A stretch of DNA of 64,000 nt from Alphaproteobacteria bacterium. Its GTDB lineage: Bacteria; Pseudomonadota; Alphaproteobacteria; Thalassobaculales; Thalassobaculaceae. The stretch spans positions 62,001 to 126,000 of the forward strand of contig JAJEAR010000082.1 in assembly GCA_022822665.1 (NCBI GenBank). Direction: 5' to 3'. Below, in pieces: positions 2,854 through 51,372 of the stretch. Position 1 is the first letter of the stretch. Every line of letters starts with the position of its first letter. A model generated the notes under the pieces. It did no database searches, had not been told where the DNA came from, and worked only from the letters and a program-made list of their open reading frames with translations. The translations under genes were made by a program, and so were the position numbers.

Positions 2854-3849
2854 ATGCAGGAACGGAAGTATGGCCGGAGAACCGGCCGACTGGTCATGGC
2901 CGGGGTCTCGGCGCTGGCCGTTGCCGCCCTGGGCATGGTGGTGAACCAGGCGTTCGCCGACGACTACCCGTCCAAGACCATCGAGGTCGTGACCCACGCC
3001 GGTGCCGGCGGCGGCACCGACGTGAACTCGCGCATGATGATGCTGCGCGCACGGCGCACGCTGAAGGCCGACATGGTGGTGGTCAACAAGCGCGGCGGCA
3101 ACGGTGCGCTCGCGATGTCGTATTTCCAGAGCCGGCCCGACGACGGCTACACGATCATGACCTTCACCAACGGTCACGCGCTCACCATGGCGCTCGGCAA
3201 GTCGGATCTGAAGGTCGAGGACATGCGCCCGATCGCACGCGGCACCAACGACCCGCAGGTCCTGATGGTCAACTGCAAGACCTCGCCCTACAAGAACTCC
3301 GACGAGTTCCTGGCCGGCGTGCGCGAGACAAAGCTCAAGTTCGGGACCACGAACATCGGTGGTCTGGACCACATCACCGCCTTTGTGTTCGCCAAGCGGG
3401 CAGGCGCGGTGCAGCCGACCATCGTTCCGTTCAAGGGTGGCGGTGAACTTGCCACCCAGCTGGTCGCCGGCTCGATCGATGTCGGCGTGCTCAACCTCTC
3501 CGAGGCATCCGCCCAGATCGAGGCGGGCGACATCTGCCCGATGGTGGTCCTGCACACCGAGCGGATGAAGCCGATCCCCGACGTCAAGACCGCCCGCGAG
3601 ATGGGTGTCGACGTCGTCTTCGCCACGGTGCGCGGATTCGTCACCCACGCCGGTGTCGACGACGCGAAGGCGGAGACACTCGAGAAGGGCATGTTGAAGG
3701 CCATGAGCCACAGCATCTATCAGGCGTATCTGACCACGTCGGGTCTGGACAACACCTCGGTACTCGGCTCCGAAGAGTGGGGTGCCCAGATCAAGCAGCT
3801 GCTGCAGGACCTGATCCCGGCCGCGAAGGAAATGGGCCTCGTGAAGTGA
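2854..3849 (+). CDS. tctC: Tripartite tricarboxylate transporter substrate-binding protein (TctC/Bug family)
   Basis: This is the periplasmic receptor of a TctABC secondary transporter for a carboxylate. The 331-residue protein has an export signal (basic residues 1-12, hydrophobic core to about 33, AFA-D cleavage-like site) and the Bug-family start YPSKTIEVV followed by a glycine-rich loop (AGAGGG) that contacts substrate carboxylates. The ATG at 2854 follows an AGAGAGGA ribosome site by six bases; the open frame upstream has no such features. It leads the operon with tctB 31 nt and tctA further downstream. The substrate cannot be told from sequence. Confidence 0.92.
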   Translation: MQERKYGRRTGRLVMAGVSALAVAALGMVVNQAFADDYPSKTIEVVTHAGAGGGTDVNSRMMMLRARRTLKADMVVVNKRGGNGALAMSYFQSRPDDGYTIMTFTNGHALTMALGKSDLKVEDMRPIARGTNDPQVLMVNCKTSPYKNSDEFLAGVRETKLKFGTTNIGGLDHITAFVFAKRAGAVQPTIVPFKGGGELATQLVAGSIDVGVLNLSEASAQIEAGDICPMVVLHTERMKPIPDVKTAREMGVDVVFATVRGFVTHAGVDDAKAETLEKGMLKAMSHSIYQAYLTTSGLDNTSVLGSEEWGAQIKQLLQDLIPAAKEMGLVK

Positions 3850-42861: not shown

Positions 42862-44160
42862 TCAGTGCGCCACCCCGGCGGCGCCGTGCTCGTCGATCAG
42901 GTAGCCGCCGACGAACCGGTCCAGCGAGAACGGGGCCGCTATCGCGTTGGGCTCGTCGCGGGCAACGAGATCGGCGAACACGTGGCCCGAGCCCGGCGTG
43001 GCCTTGAAACCGCCGGTACCCCAGCCGCAGTTGAAGTAGAGGTTGCGCACCGGTGTCCTTGAGATGATCGGCGACGCATCCGGGCAGGTATCGACGATCC
43101 CGCCCCAGGACCGGAGCATCGACAGGCGCGACAGGCATGGAAACAGCTCGACCGCGGCTGCGAGCATGCCCTCGATCACGGTCATGCTGCCGCGCTGCGT
43201 GTAGGAGTTGTAGGAGTCTGCCCCGGCGCCCAGGACCATCTCCCCCTTGTCCGACTGGCTCACGTACATGTGCACCGCGTTGGACATGATGACGACGTCA
43301 AGGATGGGCTTGATCGGCTCGGAAACCAGGGCCTGCAGCGGCCGGCTGGTGACCGGGAGCCGGAACCCGGCCAGTTCGGCGAGAACGCCGGCGTGGCCCG
43401 CCACGACGCAGGCGACCTTCGATGCACGAATCGGGCCGCGCGTGGTCTCCACGCCCCTGACCGTGCCCTGGTCGATCCTGAACCCGGTCACGGCGCAGTT
43501 CTGGATGATGTCGACTCCACGCGCATCGGCGGCCCGGGCGTATCCCCAGGCGACCGCATCGTGTCGCGCGGTGCCGCCGCGGCGCTGGATGAAACCGCCC
43601 ATGACCGGGTAGCGCAGGTTCGGACTGGTATCCATGATCGGGACCAGCCGCCTGATCTCGTCGGGTGTGAGTACGTCGGAATCGATGCCGTTCAGGCGGA
43701 TCGCCTCGACCCGGCGCCGCATCTCGCGCAGTTCGTGTTCGGAATGCGCGAGGGTGAGCACCCCGCGCTGGCTGAACATCAGGTTGAAGTTGAGCTCCTG
43801 CGAGAGGCCCTCCCACAGTTTCATCGCGTGCTCGTAGATCGCGGCACTCTCGTCCCAGAGATAGTTGGAGCGGATGATCGTGGTGTTGCGCCCGGTGTTG
43901 CCGCCGCCGATCCAGCTCTTCTCGAGCACGGCAATCCGGCGGACACCGTGCAGGCTGGCGAGGTAGTAGGCGGTGGCAAGGCCGTGGCCGCCGCCACCGA
44001 CGACGATGACATCGTACTCTTCCGCCGGCTCGGGCGATCGCCATGCCGGTGTCCAGTTGCGGTGTCCCGCAACGGCGTTGCGCGCGAGGCTGAACAGCGA
44101 ATACCGGCGCGAGCCGAAGATGTCGTCGCCGCGCTTCCGGTTCGACATCGGCAGTCTCAT
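42862..44160 (-). CDS. soxB: Sarcosine oxidase subunit beta
   Basis: The 432-residue FAD subunit carries the catalytic amine-oxidising site. The dinucleotide motif [15 protein letters not shown] lies at about residues 53-67, followed by [22 protein letters not shown], the family signature. The C-terminal end contains [20 protein letters not shown]. The ATG at 44160 has AAGGGGAA upstream; one at 44148 and an extended frame to 44214 are alternatives. It is first in the soxB-D-A-G order. Confidence 0.94.
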
Positions 44161-44319
44161 CCCCGGGTTCCCCTTCCCGGCGCCCGATGCTGCATGCGTA
44201 TCCTCTCCGACCATAAGGCACTGCCGCGTGCGTTCGCACTCAACCTGACGCCGGGCGCTCCCGCTGCGTGTGCAGTGTACGACTGAATGTGACGGGTCCG
44301 GAACACTTGCGCTCCCGGC

Positions 44320-44790
44320 CTATTGCCGGACGGCCCGGACCCGCATTATCGATCCTTCCACGCCGGTGACCTCCACCACTGTGGCCTGGGGGATCGTCTC
44401 CCCGGTGTCCGACACCGCGCTCCACCAGCTGTCGTCGAGGCGGATCTGGCCGCGGCCCGCCTCGAGCGTTGTCTCCAGCTGCACGCGCCTGCCGAGATAC
44501 TGCCGTCCCCGGGCGTTCAGGCCGTCCGCCCTGGACGACTGCCGGGCCCTGACCAGAAGCGGCCGCCCGACGGCTGTTGCAACGACGGACAGGACGGCGA
44601 AGACCGCCAGTTGCAACCGGATGTCGAGGTCCGGCCAGACCACGAGCACGAGCCCGCAGACCACCGCCGCACCGGCCGGAAACAGCAGGAAGAACGACAT
44701 GCTCATGATCTCGAAGCCGAACAGAATCACGGCCAGCGTAAACCAGTGCCAGTAGGTGGGTTGCAGCAGGAACGCGAGGTCGGCATCCAT
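44320..44790 (-). CDS. NfeD-family membrane protein
   Basis: The 156-residue protein has N-terminal membrane helices (WHWFTLAVILFGFEIMSMSF, FPAGAAVVCGLVLVV and LQLAVFAVLSVVATAV) and a C-terminal OB-fold domain (about 95-156, with LGRRVQLETTLEAGRGQIRL). NfeD proteins work with SPFH proteins in membrane microdomains and quality control. Its ATG overlaps the stop of the SPFH gene by one base, so the pair is coupled. Confidence 0.9.
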   Translation of the reverse strand: MDADLAFLLQPTYWHWFTLAVILFGFEIMSMSFFLLFPAGAAVVCGLVLVVWPDLDIRLQLAVFAVLSVVATAVGRPLLVRARQSSRADGLNARGRQYLGRRVQLETTLEAGRGQIRLDDSWWSAVSDTGETIPQATVVEVTGVEGSIMRVRAVRQ

Positions 44791-45797
44791 CACGGCTCTC
44801 CGGCGGTCCCGGTCCACGGCCCGCCACCGGGTTGCGGCGGCGGCGCCGCGGGCGTGGACGGCGCGGGTTGTCCCGATGCGGATCGCGCGATCTCGACGAT
44901 GCCGGCGAGGCTGCCGATGAGGGACGACGCCTCGAGCGGCACCATGATCACCTTCTGGTTCTCGGCCGATGCGATTGCCTCGAGCGCCTGGGTGTAGCGC
45001 TGCGCGACGAAGTAGTTGATCGCGTTAAGATCACCGGACGCGATGGCCTCGGAGACCATGGTGGTGGCCCGCGCTTCGGCCTGGGCCGCCCGCTCGCGGG
45101 CCTCGGCGTCGCGGAACGCGGCGTCGCGACGTCCCTCCGCTTCCAGCACCAGCGAGGCCTTCTCTCCCTCCGCGCGCAGGATCGCGGCCTGTTTCTCTCC
45201 CTCGGCCTGCAGGATCTCGGCCCGCTTCTGGCGCTCCGCCATCATCTGCTGGTTCATCGCCCGGGTGAGGTCCGCCGGCGGGGTGAGGTCCTTGATCTCG
45301 ACCCTGGTGACCTTCACGCCCCAGGGATTGGTCGCAAGATCGATGACGCGAAGCAGTTTCTCGTTGATGTCGTCGCGCCGGGACAGCACGTCGTCCAGCG
45401 TCATGCCGCCGATCACCGAGCGGATGTTGGTCAGCGCCAGGTTGGTGATCGCCTGGCGCATGTCCTTCACCTCGTAGGCCACCTTGGCCGCGTCGATGAC
45501 CTGATAGAATGCGACGCCGTCCGCCGAGACGGTGGCATTGTCGCGGGTGATCACGTCCTGGCCCGGAATGTCGAGCACGGTTTCCTGCATGGAAATGCGC
45601 TGTCCGATCCGTTCGACCAGGGGAATGACGAGGTGCAGCCCGGGGGTCAGCGTGCGGGTGTAGCGGCCGAATCTCTCGACGGTCCATTCGGAGGCCTGCG
45701 GGACGATCCGCACACTGCGGAATACGAGAAGCAGTGCGAACCCGAGGCCCGCCAGGACAAAGATCAGAAACGGGGTCGAGGTGAGGTCGCTGTCCAT
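44790..45797 (-). CDS. SPFH/Band 7 membrane protein (QmcA/stomatin-like)
   Basis: The 335-residue protein has an N-terminal membrane helix (about 8-27), the Band 7 domain (about 28-190, with WTVERFGRYTRTLTPGLH and EVKDMRQAITNLALTN) and a long coiled-coil rich in the EGEKQAAILRAEGE type of repeat, ending in a proline-rich tail. Such proteins oligomerise into membrane rings and pair with NfeD partners as here. Confidence 0.92.
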   Translation of the reverse strand: MDSDLTSTPFLIFVLAGLGFALLLVFRSVRIVPQASEWTVERFGRYTRTLTPGLHLVIPLVERIGQRISMQETVLDIPGQDVITRDNATVSADGVAFYQVIDAAKVAYEVKDMRQAITNLALTNIRSVIGGMTLDDVLSRRDDINEKLLRVIDLATNPWGVKVTRVEIKDLTPPADLTRAMNQQMMAERQKRAEILQAEGEKQAAILRAEGEKASLVLEAEGRRDAAFRDAEARERAAQAEARATTMVSEAIASGDLNAINYFVAQRYTQALEAIASAENQKVIMVPLEASSLIGSLAGIVEIARSASGQPAPSTPAAPPPQPGGGPWTGTAGEP

Positions 45798-46331
45798 GAT
45801 CCGGTTCCTCCGCTCTGCGGGGCTGGTCGTCGTCGGCGCGTCACGTCACACCAGCAGTGTACCATCCCTCGCAGCCGGCATCGTTGCGATATGTGCACCC
45901 CCTGACCTCGATGCGGGACGGCGAGGGAGACCCGTGACGGGAGCAGAGATCCGATCCCGGGTACCGGCGCAGACCCCTGGAGCAGCCGACCGCTGCGCTG
46001 GGCCGTGTGCGAGGGCCTGCACTCCTCGCGTCGCCCGGCGTGGCGCGGTGCACAACGAGGTGGTTCGCTGCAGGGACTGATGCCGAATTGGCCCAGGCCC
46101 AAACCTCGCCGGGTCCAGCCCTTGGGGTGCCAGGATCCGCAAGCGCGCAGTGAGGGTGGCGGGCGTTGAGAAGTGAACCCGCCTCCACACATACACCTCT
46201 TGGCATCGGGGAAACGCGTGTGGGGACTCAGGCTTTTCGACAGGAAACACTATTGATGGCAGCCACTTCGCCTGTGCAGCACGTCGGTGTCGGACCGGGG
46301 CGTCGGGCGTGTCCAGAACACCCAGATACCT
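45798..46331. other. Intergenic region upstream of the SPFH gene, no gene recognised
   Basis: About 530 bases. Several overlapping frames are open on the minus strand, but their translations are proline-, serine- and arginine-rich and match nothing I know. I compared the sequence with RNase P, tmRNA and 6S features and found no support. It borders the helicase relic. Confidence 0.45.
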
Positions 46332-46852
46332 TCACCGGAGGCCCTCCACCGGGTGCCGGCAGCCACGCACGCCGCCTTCCTCGCCGACGAATTCTTCGCG
46401 CATCCAGTCATCCACAAACCGGCCGAAGGCGAACTCCGCCTGGTCGCGGTCCGTCACGGAGGCCCCGGGGTCGATGTCGGTTTCGACCGGATAGGACGTT
46501 ATCGGGCGATGACAGAAGCCGCGGATGGTCGAGCAGGTCGCCTCGGCGAGCGCCGCATCGGCCCAGGCGATGTCGCCGCTCTGCTTTTCCGACAGGTCTA
46601 CGGGGAGTGCGGAGCCAAGTGCGACCGGAACGTCATTGGCCGCAAGCACGCTCACCAAGGTCCACGCCCAATTGAGTAGTTCGCTCGCGGCGAACCCGGT
46701 GAACGTTACCGCGGCAATGGATTTGGGGCCACGCCAGCCTCCAGCAGCGTAGCGGTCCGACCCGCCAGAACCGCTGTCTTGCCCGATTCCGCGCAGGCTT
46801 CGACAAGGTAGAGAGCGGTCACGGGTCCCGGCGGCATCGCGCCGCGCGGCAT
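46332..46852 (-). pseudogene. UvrD/AddA-type helicase, N-terminal relic
   Basis: Two minus frames together resemble the start of a UvrD-like helicase. From about 46852 the translation reads VEACAESGKTAVLAGR, a damaged Walker A (canonical AGAGSGKT). At about 46712 the frame shifts and IAAVTFTGFAASEL (motif Ia-like) follows, then STIRGFCHRPITSYPVE, close to the STIHGFCQRL block of these helicases, and DRDQAEFAFGRFVDDWMRE. Everything after roughly 170 codons, including the rest of the helicase, is missing. It lies downstream of the mcrBC genes on the same strand. Confidence 0.75.
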
Positions 46853-46980
46853 TGTCGGAAAGAAACAGAGGTCATTTCGCCATCTCCCCAACAGCCTCAT
46901 CGACGAACGGCGTCCATGGAACTTTAAGCCCCCGACAAGCTGAAAGCCAAGTGCCTCTCCCGCTCCGCTCACGCTTCCCC

Positions 46981-47220
46981 TCAGTTGAAGCGCTGGATTA
47001 TTGCAATCAGTCTCCTACCGTCCGGCAGCTCCTCGAAAGACCATGTGTTTCGGTCCGTGAACTCGGCGACCTGTCCCGACAGCGCCGAACACGTCCCGCC
47101 GAGCTGCTCGGACTGCGCCGGCGATTCCTCGACCGGCAGCAGGTCGGGCGTAAGCGCAAAGGCGCCCGGCCACCTCAAGGTCGAGCTCGGTGCGCAGCGT
47201 CGTTGCAGAACTGACTCCAT
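46981..47220 (-). CDS. Small unrecognised ORF downstream of mcrC
   Basis: A 79-residue product starting MESVLQRRC, with the segments PDLLPVEESPAQSEQL and SGQVAEFTDRNTWSFEELPD and a C-terminus RLIAIIQRFN. It looks like real protein rather than a shadow frame. A second frame (47248-47015, starting MTQLRLGLDYGV) overlaps it, so the true start may lie there followed by a frameshift, or this may be the tail of a longer lost gene. It begins 32 bases after mcrC in the same direction. No function can be given. Confidence 0.4.
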   Translation of the reverse strand: MESVLQRRCAPSSTLRWPGAFALTPDLLPVEESPAQSEQLGGTCSALSGQVAEFTDRNTWSFEELPDGRRLIAIIQRFN

Positions 47221-47251
47221 AGTCCAGACCGAGGCGGAGCTGCGTCACAAC

Positions 47252-48370
47252 TCAATCGCTCCCACAAAGGAGTGGCTCATCCACGATGCGCAATAGGCCG
47301 GCCCGAAGGTCAGAGGGAGGTCCGGCTAGATTCACGGTGGCGAACCGGAGAACATGGCCCTGGATCTGCGCGGCTTCGTCGATGGGGTGCTCCGTGGTTG
47401 GATGCAGGAGCACGCCTTCGGCGAGCCCGGTGACAGGGGGACCGTCGACCTGGGAACGAAGGTAGGCGTAGATCTGATAGAGGTACCCACTACGTAAGGC
47501 GGCGTCTCGAAATTGGGCGGGTTTGAGCAGGGACGTGAACTTCGTGTCGATTACGATTTTTCGCCCAGTGTCCTTGTGAAAGAGCTCGATGTCCGTCTCC
47601 ATCCTAGGGAGGATTGCCGCAAGTCCAGGCGTGCTAGCTTGGAGCGGCCAGTGAAGGACGCGTCCATGTGAGATTGTCCAGCCTTGGGGTGGGAGGACAA
47701 CACTGTAGAAGCCGTAGACCGCGCGTTCGAAGAGCTTGCGAAGCCAATACACATCGCGATCCGCCTGCGCCAGCAATTGCTCGCCTCTGGTCTCGGTGGG
47801 CAAAGCGAGGTCGAAGGCTAAGCGGGCAACCGCGATCATGAAGCGGTCGTTGGAATCGTGGCGTCCGAAACGATCCGCGCTTACCTCACGAGTCGAGGGG
47901 ACTCGCTCGCCGACACCCATTGCGCGGAGGTGCCGAGCGAGAACCCGGCAGCGGTGCGCGAGGGGAGGTTTCGAAACTACACGCGCGATTAACTCCAGTG
48001 CCCCTCGGACGAAACGACTGCGCGGCGTATCGATGGTGAGATCCTCATAGCGGCACGCGACCTTGCCCTGTTCGATGAGTTGCCGAGACTCGGTGCGGAG
48101 GAGGTCGATGGTCCCGCGCACACGATCCAGGACGGCCTTTCGGGGTTCGTAGGCACGATGGAGGTTTCTCCTCAACCGTTTTTCCACCACGCGGGCGAGC
48201 AACTCGGCGATGACGTCCGGGAGTTCGTCAGGCATATCCTCGACGTCAAGACGATCCTTGCCCCGCATCCGGAATAGGTCCGATGCGTAAAGCATGAGCA
48301 GCCAGACGTTGCGAAGCGGAATGCCGTTCGCCCCGGTGGCACGGGAGTTATGTTGGACCTTTGGGTTCAC
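47252..48370 (-). CDS. mcrC: McrC-family nuclease subunit of a modification-dependent restriction system
   Basis: McrC stimulates McrB GTPase and supplies the PD-(D/E)xK nuclease. The 372-residue protein shows an N-terminal IPLRNVWLLMLYASDLF segment typical of McrC homologues and a nuclease core with Asp260 (METDIELF) and Asp275-Thr-Lys277 (IVIDTKF). The ATG overlaps the mcrB stop by four bases. Base composition is visibly lower in GC than the flanks. All expected catalytic residues are present, so the system may be functional. Confidence 0.88.
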   Translation of the reverse strand: MNPKVQHNSRATGANGIPLRNVWLLMLYASDLFRMRGKDRLDVEDMPDELPDVIAELLARVVEKRLRRNLHRAYEPRKAVLDRVRGTIDLLRTESRQLIEQGKVACRYEDLTIDTPRSRFVRGALELIARVVSKPPLAHRCRVLARHLRAMGVGERVPSTREVSADRFGRHDSNDRFMIAVARLAFDLALPTETRGEQLLAQADRDVYWLRKLFERAVYGFYSVVLPPQGWTISHGRVLHWPLQASTPGLAAILPRMETDIELFHKDTGRKIVIDTKFTSLLKPAQFRDAALRSGYLYQIYAYLRSQVDGPPVTGLAEGVLLHPTTEHPIDEAAQIQGHVLRFATVNLAGPPSDLRAGLLRIVDEPLLCGSD

Positions 48371-50304
48371 CAGTCGTCAAGCAGGCGGTCGCGCTCTTGT
48401 CTGGCACGATCGGGGTCCTCGAACCAGTACTCCTCAAGCAGCGGCGCAAGCTCTGTCTCGACGACGTCGCGGAACCAGCCATTGACGTTATCGGGATTAA
48501 GGTTGTCAGCAGGTGTCACGTAGCTGTGCCCAACGCAGAACTGTTCACCCAGCGACTTCGTATTCGCGATTGCCTCGTTGAGCGCCACCATGCGGCTCTG
48601 GATATCGTCTGCGACCTCCGTGTCGATTCCCAGTTTCTCTGTGACCCAACGATGCCATGCTCCGTCGATCCTGGGCTTGAGGGTGGCGAACGCGAAGCGC
48701 CGACGCAGAGCCAGGTCGACAAGCGCGAGGGAACGATCCGCGATGTTCATGGTGCCGATGACGTAGACATTCTCAGGGACATGGACTCGTGTAGTTTCGT
48801 CTCCGGTGGCGTAGGCGAGTTCCAGCGCCTCTTCTTCGAGCCGCTTGTCCGCTTCGAGCAGTGTGATGAGTTCCCCGAAGATCTGGGCGGGGTTGCCGCG
48901 ATTGATCTCTTCAATGACCACTACGAACGGGGTCTCGTCGGTGCAGGCCGACTCGATTGCGCGAAGGAAGATACCTTTCGTGAGTTCAAGCCCGCTTGCG
49001 GAAGGCCGCCAACCGAGAACGAAATCTTCGTAAGACAGTGTTGGATGGAACTGCACGCTACAAATGCGTTCGCGGTCTTTGCGGCCTATCAGCGCGTAGG
49101 CAAGACGTTTAGCCAACCAGGTTTTGCCGGTTCCCGGCGGACCTTGGAGTACGAGGTTCTTCTTGGTTTCCAGTCTGTTCAGAAGTGAGTTGAGTTCGCT
49201 GCGTTCCAGGAAGCAACCGTCCTTCAGAATCGAGTCTACAGTGTATGGCGGTTCGGTTTGTGGTTTGGGGAGGAGTGGGAGAATGCCGACGGCTCGCTTG
49301 AGGCCATCCACGAGGTTGGGGTAGCCCGACACGTCGGTGAGGGTTTTGGTCACCAGCCGCGTGTCCCGGACACGGATGCCGTCACGGAAGTTGGAGTGCC
49401 AATCGACGTCGCGCACGTTCTTGTACTCTGGACGGGCAGAGTCGAAACGGTAAGCGGAGGTTACCGTGCCGTGTCCAACCACGGCGGTGGTTCCGAGCTT
49501 CGCGAAGATGGTGTCGCCCGGCTTCATGTCGTGACAGAACTGCCAGCAGGCCAACGAGTCGTTCGAGCCAAGCTTTAGGGCCTCTCGACTCTCATACTTG
49601 GTAATGTCGCCAAGGTTGTCCCAGCCTAGGCAAGCGATTCCTTCGCGTCGGCACTCGTCCCAAAATTTGGCCCTCGGACCGAGCGCCATTAGCCAGTAAC
49701 GAGGTTCGGCATTGGGCTTGACTTCCAATTGCTGGTCCAAGTTGTCGGCTTTGGTGCGTACATCAGCCAGCAGGAAAACGGTCGAGAGGAACTGCTCTAC
49801 CTCAGCTGGGCGTTCGGGAATGGGGATGGCCACGCGTGAGTTCTCGCACGGCAAACCCCTTTGCGTAGCGAGCGCGTTGAACCTCTCCTTTCGGTTGGGG
49901 TTGCGTTGTTTGTCGTGCTTTGCCGGCCGATAGGTCCAACTCAACTTGTTGTCACGGATTTCGTGTGCCTCGAACAGGATGCGCGAACGATTGCCATTGT
50001 ATGCGATCAGTGCAAATTGCGAGGCTTGCCTGCGCGACCACTGGATGAAGAGCAGAATTAGTTCGTTTGTGTCAAAGGAAATACGGAAGTCGCCAAAGCA
50101 CTCCTTACCGTCAGCCCGCGGTGTCTCGAGTTCCTCTTCAAGGCGGAACGACTCGGAATCATCCAAGCCAATTCGAACGAGTTGGCTGATTTGTTCGGCT
50201 TTGTCGCGATCCAAAAGCTCAGTCTCCGAGGATGTAGAATGCTGGAACGCCTCTGTAGGCGTCTCTGCGTGCGGGTGGACGTCTATCCCACTTCGTGACG
50301 GCAT
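48367..50304 (-). CDS. mcrB: McrB-family AAA+ GTPase with EVE-like DNA-binding region
   Basis: The 645-residue protein has an N-terminal region of unknown fold (1-195), an EVE-like module (about 202-345, starting RYWLMALGPRAKFWDECR) likely to read modified cytosine, and a McrB motor: Walker A GPPGTGKT (388-395), Walker B VVVIEEINRG (461-470) and the GTP-specific MNIADRS (519-525), then LRRRFAF. GC is low for the window, suggesting acquisition. The ATG at 50304 lacks a ribosome site and lies only about four bases after a predicted transcription start; a TTG at 50214 with GGAG nine bases upstream is a serious alternative. Confidence 0.88.
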   Translation of the reverse strand: MPSRSGIDVHPHAETPTEAFQHSTSSETELLDRDKAEQISQLVRIGLDDSESFRLEEELETPRADGKECFGDFRISFDTNELILLFIQWSRRQASQFALIAYNGNRSRILFEAHEIRDNKLSWTYRPAKHDKQRNPNRKERFNALATQRGLPCENSRVAIPIPERPAEVEQFLSTVFLLADVRTKADNLDQQLEVKPNAEPRYWLMALGPRAKFWDECRREGIACLGWDNLGDITKYESREALKLGSNDSLACWQFCHDMKPGDTIFAKLGTTAVVGHGTVTSAYRFDSARPEYKNVRDVDWHSNFRDGIRVRDTRLVTKTLTDVSGYPNLVDGLKRAVGILPLLPKPQTEPPYTVDSILKDGCFLERSELNSLLNRLETKKNLVLQGPPGTGKTWLAKRLAYALIGRKDRERICSVQFHPTLSYEDFVLGWRPSASGLELTKGIFLRAIESACTDETPFVVVIEEINRGNPAQIFGELITLLEADKRLEEEALELAYATGDETTRVHVPENVYVIGTMNIADRSLALVDLALRRRFAFATLKPRIDGAWHRWVTEKLGIDTEVADDIQSRMVALNEAIANTKSLGEQFCVGHSYVTPADNLNPDNVNGWFRDVVETELAPLLEEYWFEDPDRARQERDRLLDDW

Positions 50305-50314
50305 GCAGCGTGCG

Positions 50315-50342
50315 ATTGTTCACACCTGCACCGTACTGTCAA
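50315..50342 (-). promoter_or_regulatory. Promoter of mcrBC
   Basis: Reading the minus strand, a perfect TTGACA (50342-50337) is followed after 16 nt by AACAAT (50320-50315), four of six matches. Transcription would start near 50308, almost at the annotated ATG, so either the mRNA is nearly leaderless or translation begins at the downstream TTG. Confidence 0.5.
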
Positions 50343-50679
50343 GGACTGGTAGTCCAGTTCTGGTCGGCGATCAAATCGAGACCGGCAGCGACTTGCGGTT
50401 CCGCTCATGGTCGCTTCATCTCAAACCCACATTCGTGTCTTCAGCCACGTAAGCGAAACGGCCATTTCTTCCGTACCTACCTCACGTTACGCCCCGGCGC
50501 TTGCCGAAACATCTGTAAGCATGACTTCTGTAAATCTATTGGTAAGAGCCCCGAGAGAGGTATCGAACTCCAAACTCTTGCCCCGCATTGGGACCGTGGT
50601 CAACCAACCCGGATGTCGGGCGCGCAAGCGCGGACAGGGGCTCCCTGTCGTCGTGGGCCTGTGCCTGACGCTCCTGCCG
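50343..50679. other. Lower-GC intergenic region between mcrB and the nitroreductase
   Basis: About 340 bases, relatively A/T-rich from 50440 to 50560. A short segment near 50545-50570 resembles a tRNA T-arm on the minus strand but no cloverleaf can be drawn. It may mark the left or right edge of the acquired mcrBC segment. Confidence 0.4.
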
Positions 50680-51351
50680 TCAGACGTAGCTGACCACCTC
50701 GTCGAACGGCTTTCGTCCGATGTCGGGAACCGTCGCGTCCTTGTCCGGATAGCCGGTCACCAGCAGGAGGAAGGGCCGTTCGGCCGATTTCGGACGTCCC
50801 AGGATCTCGTTGAGGAACGCCATGGGGCTCGGCGTGTGCGTCAGCGTTGCCAGCCCGGCGAGGTGCAGCGCGGTGATCAGCATCCCGGTCGCGAGCCCGA
50901 CCGATTCCATCGGGTAGTAGTGCTTGACCTTGCGGCCGTCAGCCAGGCGGCCGTGCTTCTGGGAGAAGACGGCGATCAGATATGGAGCCGTCTCGAGGAA
51001 GGGCTTGTGCTCGTCGGTGCCCAGCGGTGCAAGTGCGTCCAGCCATTCCTGCGGCGCCCGTTCACGGTAGAACCGGCGTTCCTCTTCTTCAGCGGCTTCC
51101 CGAATCCGCCTTTTTGTCTCCGGATCGCCGACGACGACGAAATGCCACGGCTGGAGGTTGGCGCCGCTCGGCGCCGTCGTCGCGGCGGCCAGGCATTCGT
51201 CGATGATCGCGCGTGGAACCGGCCGGCTCGAGAAGTGGCGCACCGTACGCCGCCGTTTCAGATCCGCGTGGAAGTCACGCGCACGCTGCAACATCTCGTC
51301 TTCAGGGCTCTCCCGGTACCCGGGCAGCGGAACGAAGGTGGGCTTGTCCAT
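50680..51351 (-). CDS. Nitroreductase-family FMN oxidoreductase
   Basis: The 223-residue protein has the nitroreductase pattern [14 protein letters not shown] (FMN phosphate contacts, about residues 33-46), [16 protein letters not shown] and the glycine-rich [16 protein letters not shown] helix. Family members reduce nitro groups, quinones or halogenated aromatics with NAD(P)H. A 12-bp perfect hairpin lies 22 bases upstream of its ATG. GC returns to the window average here. Confidence 0.9.
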
Positions 51352-51372
51352 CTCGTGGTCCTCTCACCTTGA

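Follow-up and report, generated by a model that had tools for sequence, protein, structure and literature searches.

A Type IV McrBC locus whose McrB joins an undescribed N-terminal module to an EVE/YTH-like domain

To our knowledge, Type IV restriction draws on few kinds of modification reader: SRA, EVE/YTH, DUF3578, the EcoKMcrA domain, the winged helix and the sulfur-binding domain. Fusions of an EVE domain to McrB are common and well known, being the most frequent defence-related architecture of EVE, spread over nearly 300 genera and often including extra domains (Bell et al. 2020, PMC7641849). In the EVE-HNH endonuclease VcaM4I, 5-methylcytosine (5mC) or 5-hydroxymethylcytosine (5hmC) is flipped into a hydrophobic pocket (PMC7897488), and McrB of Thermococcus gammatolerans has a YTH-like reader of N6-methyladenine (6mA), as PMC7641849 and PMC7897488 describe the work of Hosford et al. 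(2020). The locus analysed here lies in a 64,000-nucleotide stretch of contig JAJEAR010000082.1 (the window) from an alphaproteobacterium of the family Thalassobaculaceae, and comprises mcrB (48367-50304) and mcrC (47252-48370; 372 residues from a GTG start) on the reverse strand, as are the parts of these two genes and the small open reading frame after mcrC. It belongs to the known EVE-McrBC kind; what is new is the N-terminal stretch of about 160 residues in McrB, which probably confers specificity. We consider it rather probable that this is a horizontally acquired Type IV McrBC system in which McrB combines an undescribed N-terminal module, a reader of EVE/YTH fold and a GTPase, with the module contacting modified DNA.

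Like the EVE-McrB fusions (PMC7641849), the locus has an EVE-superfamily reader ahead of the McrB GTPase and a separate mcrC gene, but it departs from them in the undescribed N-terminal module and in a divergent EVE domain that has no match to Pfam EVE. With the T. gammatolerans McrB it would share a reader of YTH/EVE fold, the model of the window's domain being about equally close to YTH and EVE structures. We know of no report of an N-terminal module of this kind in the T. gammatolerans protein. The McrBC system of Escherichia coli K-12 corresponds in its GTPase, McrC, operon layout and active-site motifs, whereas its reader, DUF3578/MrcB_N, has no match in the window McrB.

The N-terminal module and its relatives

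The original prediction, made from the sequence of the window, described a 195-residue N-terminal part of McrB that could not be assigned. The part has stayed unassignable in both sequence and fold searches, while its length falls to about 165 residues when counted from the probable translation start. No ribosome-binding site is visible for the ATG at 50304, which would give a protein of 645 residues. The start is probably the TTG at 50214, giving 615 residues, because GGAG (50224-50227) lies nine bases upstream and the N-termini of the relatives fall at the corresponding position (MDRNTAE, MKRQTAE, MERRLAK and MNKKTAI). The module itself covers residues ~31-190 in the ATG numbering used throughout (49735-50214). 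It has no significant match in Pfam, NCBIfam, PADLOC, PHROGs or the PDB sequences, and MrcB_N (PF12102, DUF3578) was not found in the window McrB by a search that detects it in two plasmid relatives (L093 and L094). Structure models were built with sequences from plasmid records and sampled-genome searches left out. For the module, a model from four sequences was confident (predicted local distance difference test, pLDDT, 83; predicted template modelling score, pTM, 0.82) and gave no significant match in fold searches of the PDB and BFVD. The suggestion that this region lies outside the described McrB DNA-binding domains thus held, as it is neither DUF3578 nor a solved fold, and by these comparisons the module is an undescribed family. 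Two candidate resemblances were set aside: one to p32-like and single-stranded-DNA-binding SP_0782/YdbC folds (TM 0.11-0.26 by query length) was discarded as chance, and one of the family member P0004 to a beta-lactamase model scored 18.9 bits, with a cut-off of 525.

The relatives of the module place it in three settings. A pattern search across 84,980 species genomes, which catches close relatives only, returned three full-length McrB proteins (L007, L008 and L009), each with the module together with the EVE-GTPase pair; L007 reaches 72% with the window in its best segment. L008 and L009, from two metagenome-assembled genomes of Gammaproteobacteria, have ~185 additional residues separating the module from the EVE domain, with weak matches to winged-helix Pfam models (Mrr_N and HTH_45, 0.02-0.06). 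In this winged-helix-like insert the two proteins recall the 6mA-dependent winged-helix fusion endonucleases (PMC11037411), whereas the window McrB is without it. Profile searches of sampled genomes recovered three carriers of the module among 398 genomes of the phylum, namely the window's own, G584 and G651, and two (G584 and G887) among 369 genomes from the class to which G584 belongs. The three matches outside McrB are solitary genes for proteins of 283-300 residues, each with an HNH nuclease C-terminal to the module (L099 1129-1989, L100 1465-2367 and L106 1156-2007). The HNH part of L100 matches EcoKMcrA (PDB 6ghc) at 5.9e-5, and mREase_IV, a PADLOC model for Type IV enzymes, picks up L099 and L100. 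With the BLAST database size fixed at 5e7, the window module matched each HNH fusion directly (E 1e-7 to 9e-9) and L007 did so more strongly (E 6e-16 to 1e-24); these matches are significant, so the kinship stands independently of the profile. A translated plasmid search added the third setting, a stand-alone protein of 172 residues on two Paenibacillus plasmids (L091 5875-6393 and L097 ~3001-3505). In the tree, McrB-linked modules separate from the HNH-linked and stand-alone modules in a supported split (100/99). No relative other than the window itself appeared in viral contigs, phage records or 289 genomes of the class.

Because the module occurs ahead of an EVE-GTPase pair, ahead of an HNH nuclease and alone, these sequences mark it as a mobile module of Type IV restriction enzymes. 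Some of its relatives are fused to a nuclease of the kind seen in EcoKMcrA and in further HNH enzymes of Type IV (PMC7145662), much as the EVE domain, too, is common to HNH enzymes such as VcaM4I (PMC7897488) and to McrB. Sequence and fold searches with the module returned neither the N-terminal domain of EcoKMcrA nor the EVE domain, which sets it apart from both enzymes. Around these loci, the module-HNH gene of G651 lies between a transporter gene and dnaJ-dnaK, and on the Paenibacillus plasmids the stand-alone module has an HNH gene three genes upstream. Of these plasmid copies, that on pART37 matched in two pieces, carries no annotation and may be frameshifted.

The copy in the window departs from the family at two positions, both within well conserved parts. 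Family members have an FHQW-type motif followed by (A/T)(D/E/N)(G/N/S)K; in the alignment the window keeps ADGK, while the residues up to and including the motif are missing between Arg63 and Ala64 (50113-50118). The motif reads exactly FHQW in four of the seven other copies (L007, P0004, L099 and L106) and is varied in L008, L009 and L100 as FPRQW, FHRQY and FHTF. The second departure is one extra residue in a conserved loop at residues 132-133 (49906-49911), where KHDKQRN stands for KHDGRN or KRDGKN. The window module retains an open reading frame and the other invariant residues, and its branch is not long (0.45, compared with a median of 0.75). From the alignment, the specificity or function of this copy may have been changed or lost.

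The EVE/YTH-like domain and the GTPase-nuclease core

Residues 196-345 of McrB (49270-49719) were recognised by sequence through PADLOC candidate models only (PDC-S02), and there was no match to Pfam EVE. An AlphaFold2 model of this region from six sequences (pLDDT 88, pTM 0.85) had as its best PDB match in Foldseek the EVE-HNH endonuclease VcaM4I (E 7.1e-5). YTH domains and stand-alone EVE proteins followed, nearly all at probability 0.97-1.00, with moderate TM-scores of about 0.4-0.55. These matches indicate that the region is, by predicted fold, a PUA-superfamily domain of EVE/YTH type N-terminal to the GTPase, making the protein an EVE-McrB fusion and bearing out the EVE-like reader proposed in the original prediction. 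Similar EVE domains occur in plasmid-encoded McrB proteins, behind DUF3578 in Microvirga and Roseomonas and behind other N-termini. One such gene on a Microvirga plasmid (L093 3987-5732) combines DUF3578 with two tandem domains, one recognised as Pfam EVE and the other EVE-like, and its frame stops within the GTPase domain, so that it looks truncated. Another, on a Hymenobacter plasmid (L095 4491-6419), apparently has two tandem EVE-like domains and has a DNA methyltransferase, a helicase and a TIR-domain gene as neighbours.

The AAA+ GTPase domain occupies residues 346-645 (48370-49269; Pfam AAA_5 2e-26), and these C-terminal 300 residues align with the solved E. coli McrB at 1.5e-68. Alignment places Walker A at GPPGTGKT (residues 388-395; 49120-49143), the Walker B region at EEINR (residues 465-469; 48898-48912) and the NxxD GTPase signature at MNIADRS (residues 519-525; 48730-48750). 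E. coli McrB has DEINR at Walker B; Glu replaces Asp in 82 of the 86 sequences compared, which identifies the substitution as a subfamily trait, not decay, as judged from this alignment. McrC scores 369 bits with NCBIfam NF007277 (cut-off 338), 8.8e-22 with Pfam McrBC and 1.2e-19 with E. coli McrC, and it keeps the PD-(D/E)xK residues Asp260 and Asp275-x-Lys277 (47540-47593), reading PRMETDI...DTK where E. coli McrC reads PRMETDI...DAK. A GTPase with Walker A, Walker B and NxxD next to an mcrC gene encoding an N-terminal domain and a PD-(D/E)xK nuclease is characteristic of Type IV McrBC, and by sequence the locus is a genuine system of this type, in which restriction would depend on DNA modification and GTP, in keeping with its first description as an McrBC defence locus. 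The same genome holds a second McrB-like GTPase (L002, G000:C54:41130-41888; 39% over the GTPase domain), and a genome of the same genus gives a match similar to it (L004).

The acquired block and the small frame after mcrC

The first description of mcrB and mcrC as intact genes coupled by a four-base overlap and differing in composition from their flanks was confirmed on each point. The mcrB stop and the mcrC start overlap in GTGA. GC content over mcrBC is 0.56-0.62 (mcrB 0.574, mcrC 0.609) compared with 0.65-0.70 in the flanks, and at third codon positions it is 0.68-0.69 compared with 0.81-0.88 in four of the five flanking genes measured, the exception being an HD gene (0.73). Comparison with the same-genus genome G001 gave the dip its boundaries: window 44000-46097 corresponds to G001:C64:14895-16979 and window 50581-51369 to G001:C64:17186-17977, each at about 90% identity, and G001 has ~206 bp between the two in place of a block of ~4.5 kb (46098-50580, no strand). 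The absence of the block from this sister genome and its deviating composition together support horizontal acquisition, by an insertion that would be recent. No tRNA or RNA element was found at the insertion edge, where a match to an Xist exon (E 0.43) was discarded as chance, no convincing direct repeats frame the block, and a plasmid search gave no near-identical copy of the locus. Outside the block, an SPFH/Band 7 gene contains two adjacent 33-bp direct repeats that are 82% alike (45160-45225).

Inside the block and beyond mcrC, 46364-46884 duplicates, at 81%, a portion of an open frame located on contig C76 of the same genome, which looks like a UvrD/AddA-type helicase (...VEAGAGSGKTAVLAGR...), and side by side with it 46887-46977 repeats a stretch of contig C86 at 79%. 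By these matches, 46364-46977 is genome debris, displaced fragments of sequences found elsewhere in the genome. The small open reading frame that had been placed in the cluster (46981-47220; 79 residues) exists and adjoins this debris, and its membership did not stand. A third component of the system would be compatible with its position on the strand of mcrC, 31 bp downstream, and with a codon score (0.079) similar to that of mcrB (0.047). But neither the flanks of the three full-length relatives nor the other related loci compared contained a counterpart, matches in 60 related genomes were at noise level (best E 0.016), no family was found in Pfam, NCBIfam, PADLOC or PHROGs, and no ribosome-binding site is visible. 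We therefore regard a third component as most improbable; on this evidence the frame is not part of the McrBC system and may be an orphan gene or remnant. Two findings taken together had been named as speaking against the earlier interpretation of the locus: a match of the N-terminal region to a described McrB DNA-binding domain, which was not found, and the lack of the small frame beside other mcrBC loci, which was.

Proposed role of the module

By analogy with characterised homologues, the EVE domain would flip the modified base of incoming phage or plasmid DNA into its pocket. For the N-terminal module we propose a second contact with the modified DNA, at another modification or with the sequence context, that widens or sharpens specificity. 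The GTPase hexamer would then assemble and recruit McrC, with GTP hydrolysis, again as in the homologues, driving translocation and the McrC nuclease cutting. In the HNH fusions the module is the only domain besides the nuclease and hence the sole possible specificity domain, from which we infer that it probably reads modified DNA. Recognition of a modification other than 5mC, as first suggested, is possible and compatible with a McrB of two modules. More tentatively, and somewhat short of even chances in our view, the module is a modification reader of new family and fold, common to McrBC and McrA-like HNH enzymes and sensing a modification different from that read by EVE, so that one McrB would contain two readers, possibly three in L008 and L009. 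If the host methyltransferases are active, the readers must spare their marks. The genome encodes a cytosine-5 methyltransferase on contig C13 (L109; TIGR00675, 138 bits, over the cut-off) and two N6/N4 methyltransferase-like genes, one full-length and one a partial domain match, both below the cut-offs of the adenine methyltransferase models; this constraint is weak because the genome is a draft. The cytosine-5 methyltransferase gene is directly followed by one for a GHKL-type ATPase (HATPase_c_3, 1.7e-32), and the two may form a separate restriction locus.

Several points weigh against a module that reads modified DNA. The role is assigned from position and module swapping, the fold matches no known reader in the PDB or BFVD, the composition is not basic overall (25 K+R, 30 D+E), and the window copy, without its FHQW-type motif, may have ceased to recognise the target of its relatives. 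The missing fold match and the acidity would also suit an accessory part, acting in oligomerisation, non-specific DNA binding or regulation by sensing a phage protein, with EVE alone setting specificity, as would the stand-alone Paenibacillus protein, which has no nuclease gene directly adjacent. We consider this quite unlikely, since the place that the module holds in the HNH fusions belongs, in EcoKMcrA and further HNH enzymes of Type IV, to the specificity domain. Doubtful, though to be taken somewhat more seriously, is that the copy in the window is degenerate and that any activity of the protein comes through EVE alone, which would leave a reading role in the relatives untouched. The lost motif and the extra residue in the KHDG-N loop point that way, but the intact frame, the retained invariant residues, the still confident model and a branch of no great length do not, and loss of the motif could retune specificity without destroying it.

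An RNA target, as in the CoCoNuT branch of McrBC, seems highly improbable. YTH-like domains do occur in Type I CoCoNuTs, but it is NxD, not NxxD, that marks the GTPase branch containing them (PMC11090510), and the MNIADRS signature puts the window McrB outside it. McrC moreover keeps its PD-(D/E)xK residues, and no HEPN, cold-shock or Hsp70 partner was found in the locus. Our preferred interpretation thus stays that of a McrB whose module contacts modified DNA in addition to the EVE/YTH-like reader. If this is true, the module would add a further reader family to Type IV restriction, one available in the form of a single-domain HNH fusion about 285 residues long that would be easy to try on phages with unusual bases and might serve as a tool for detecting DNA modification. 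The pairing of readers within one McrB would further be relevant to how such systems tell hypermodified phage DNA from host methylation.

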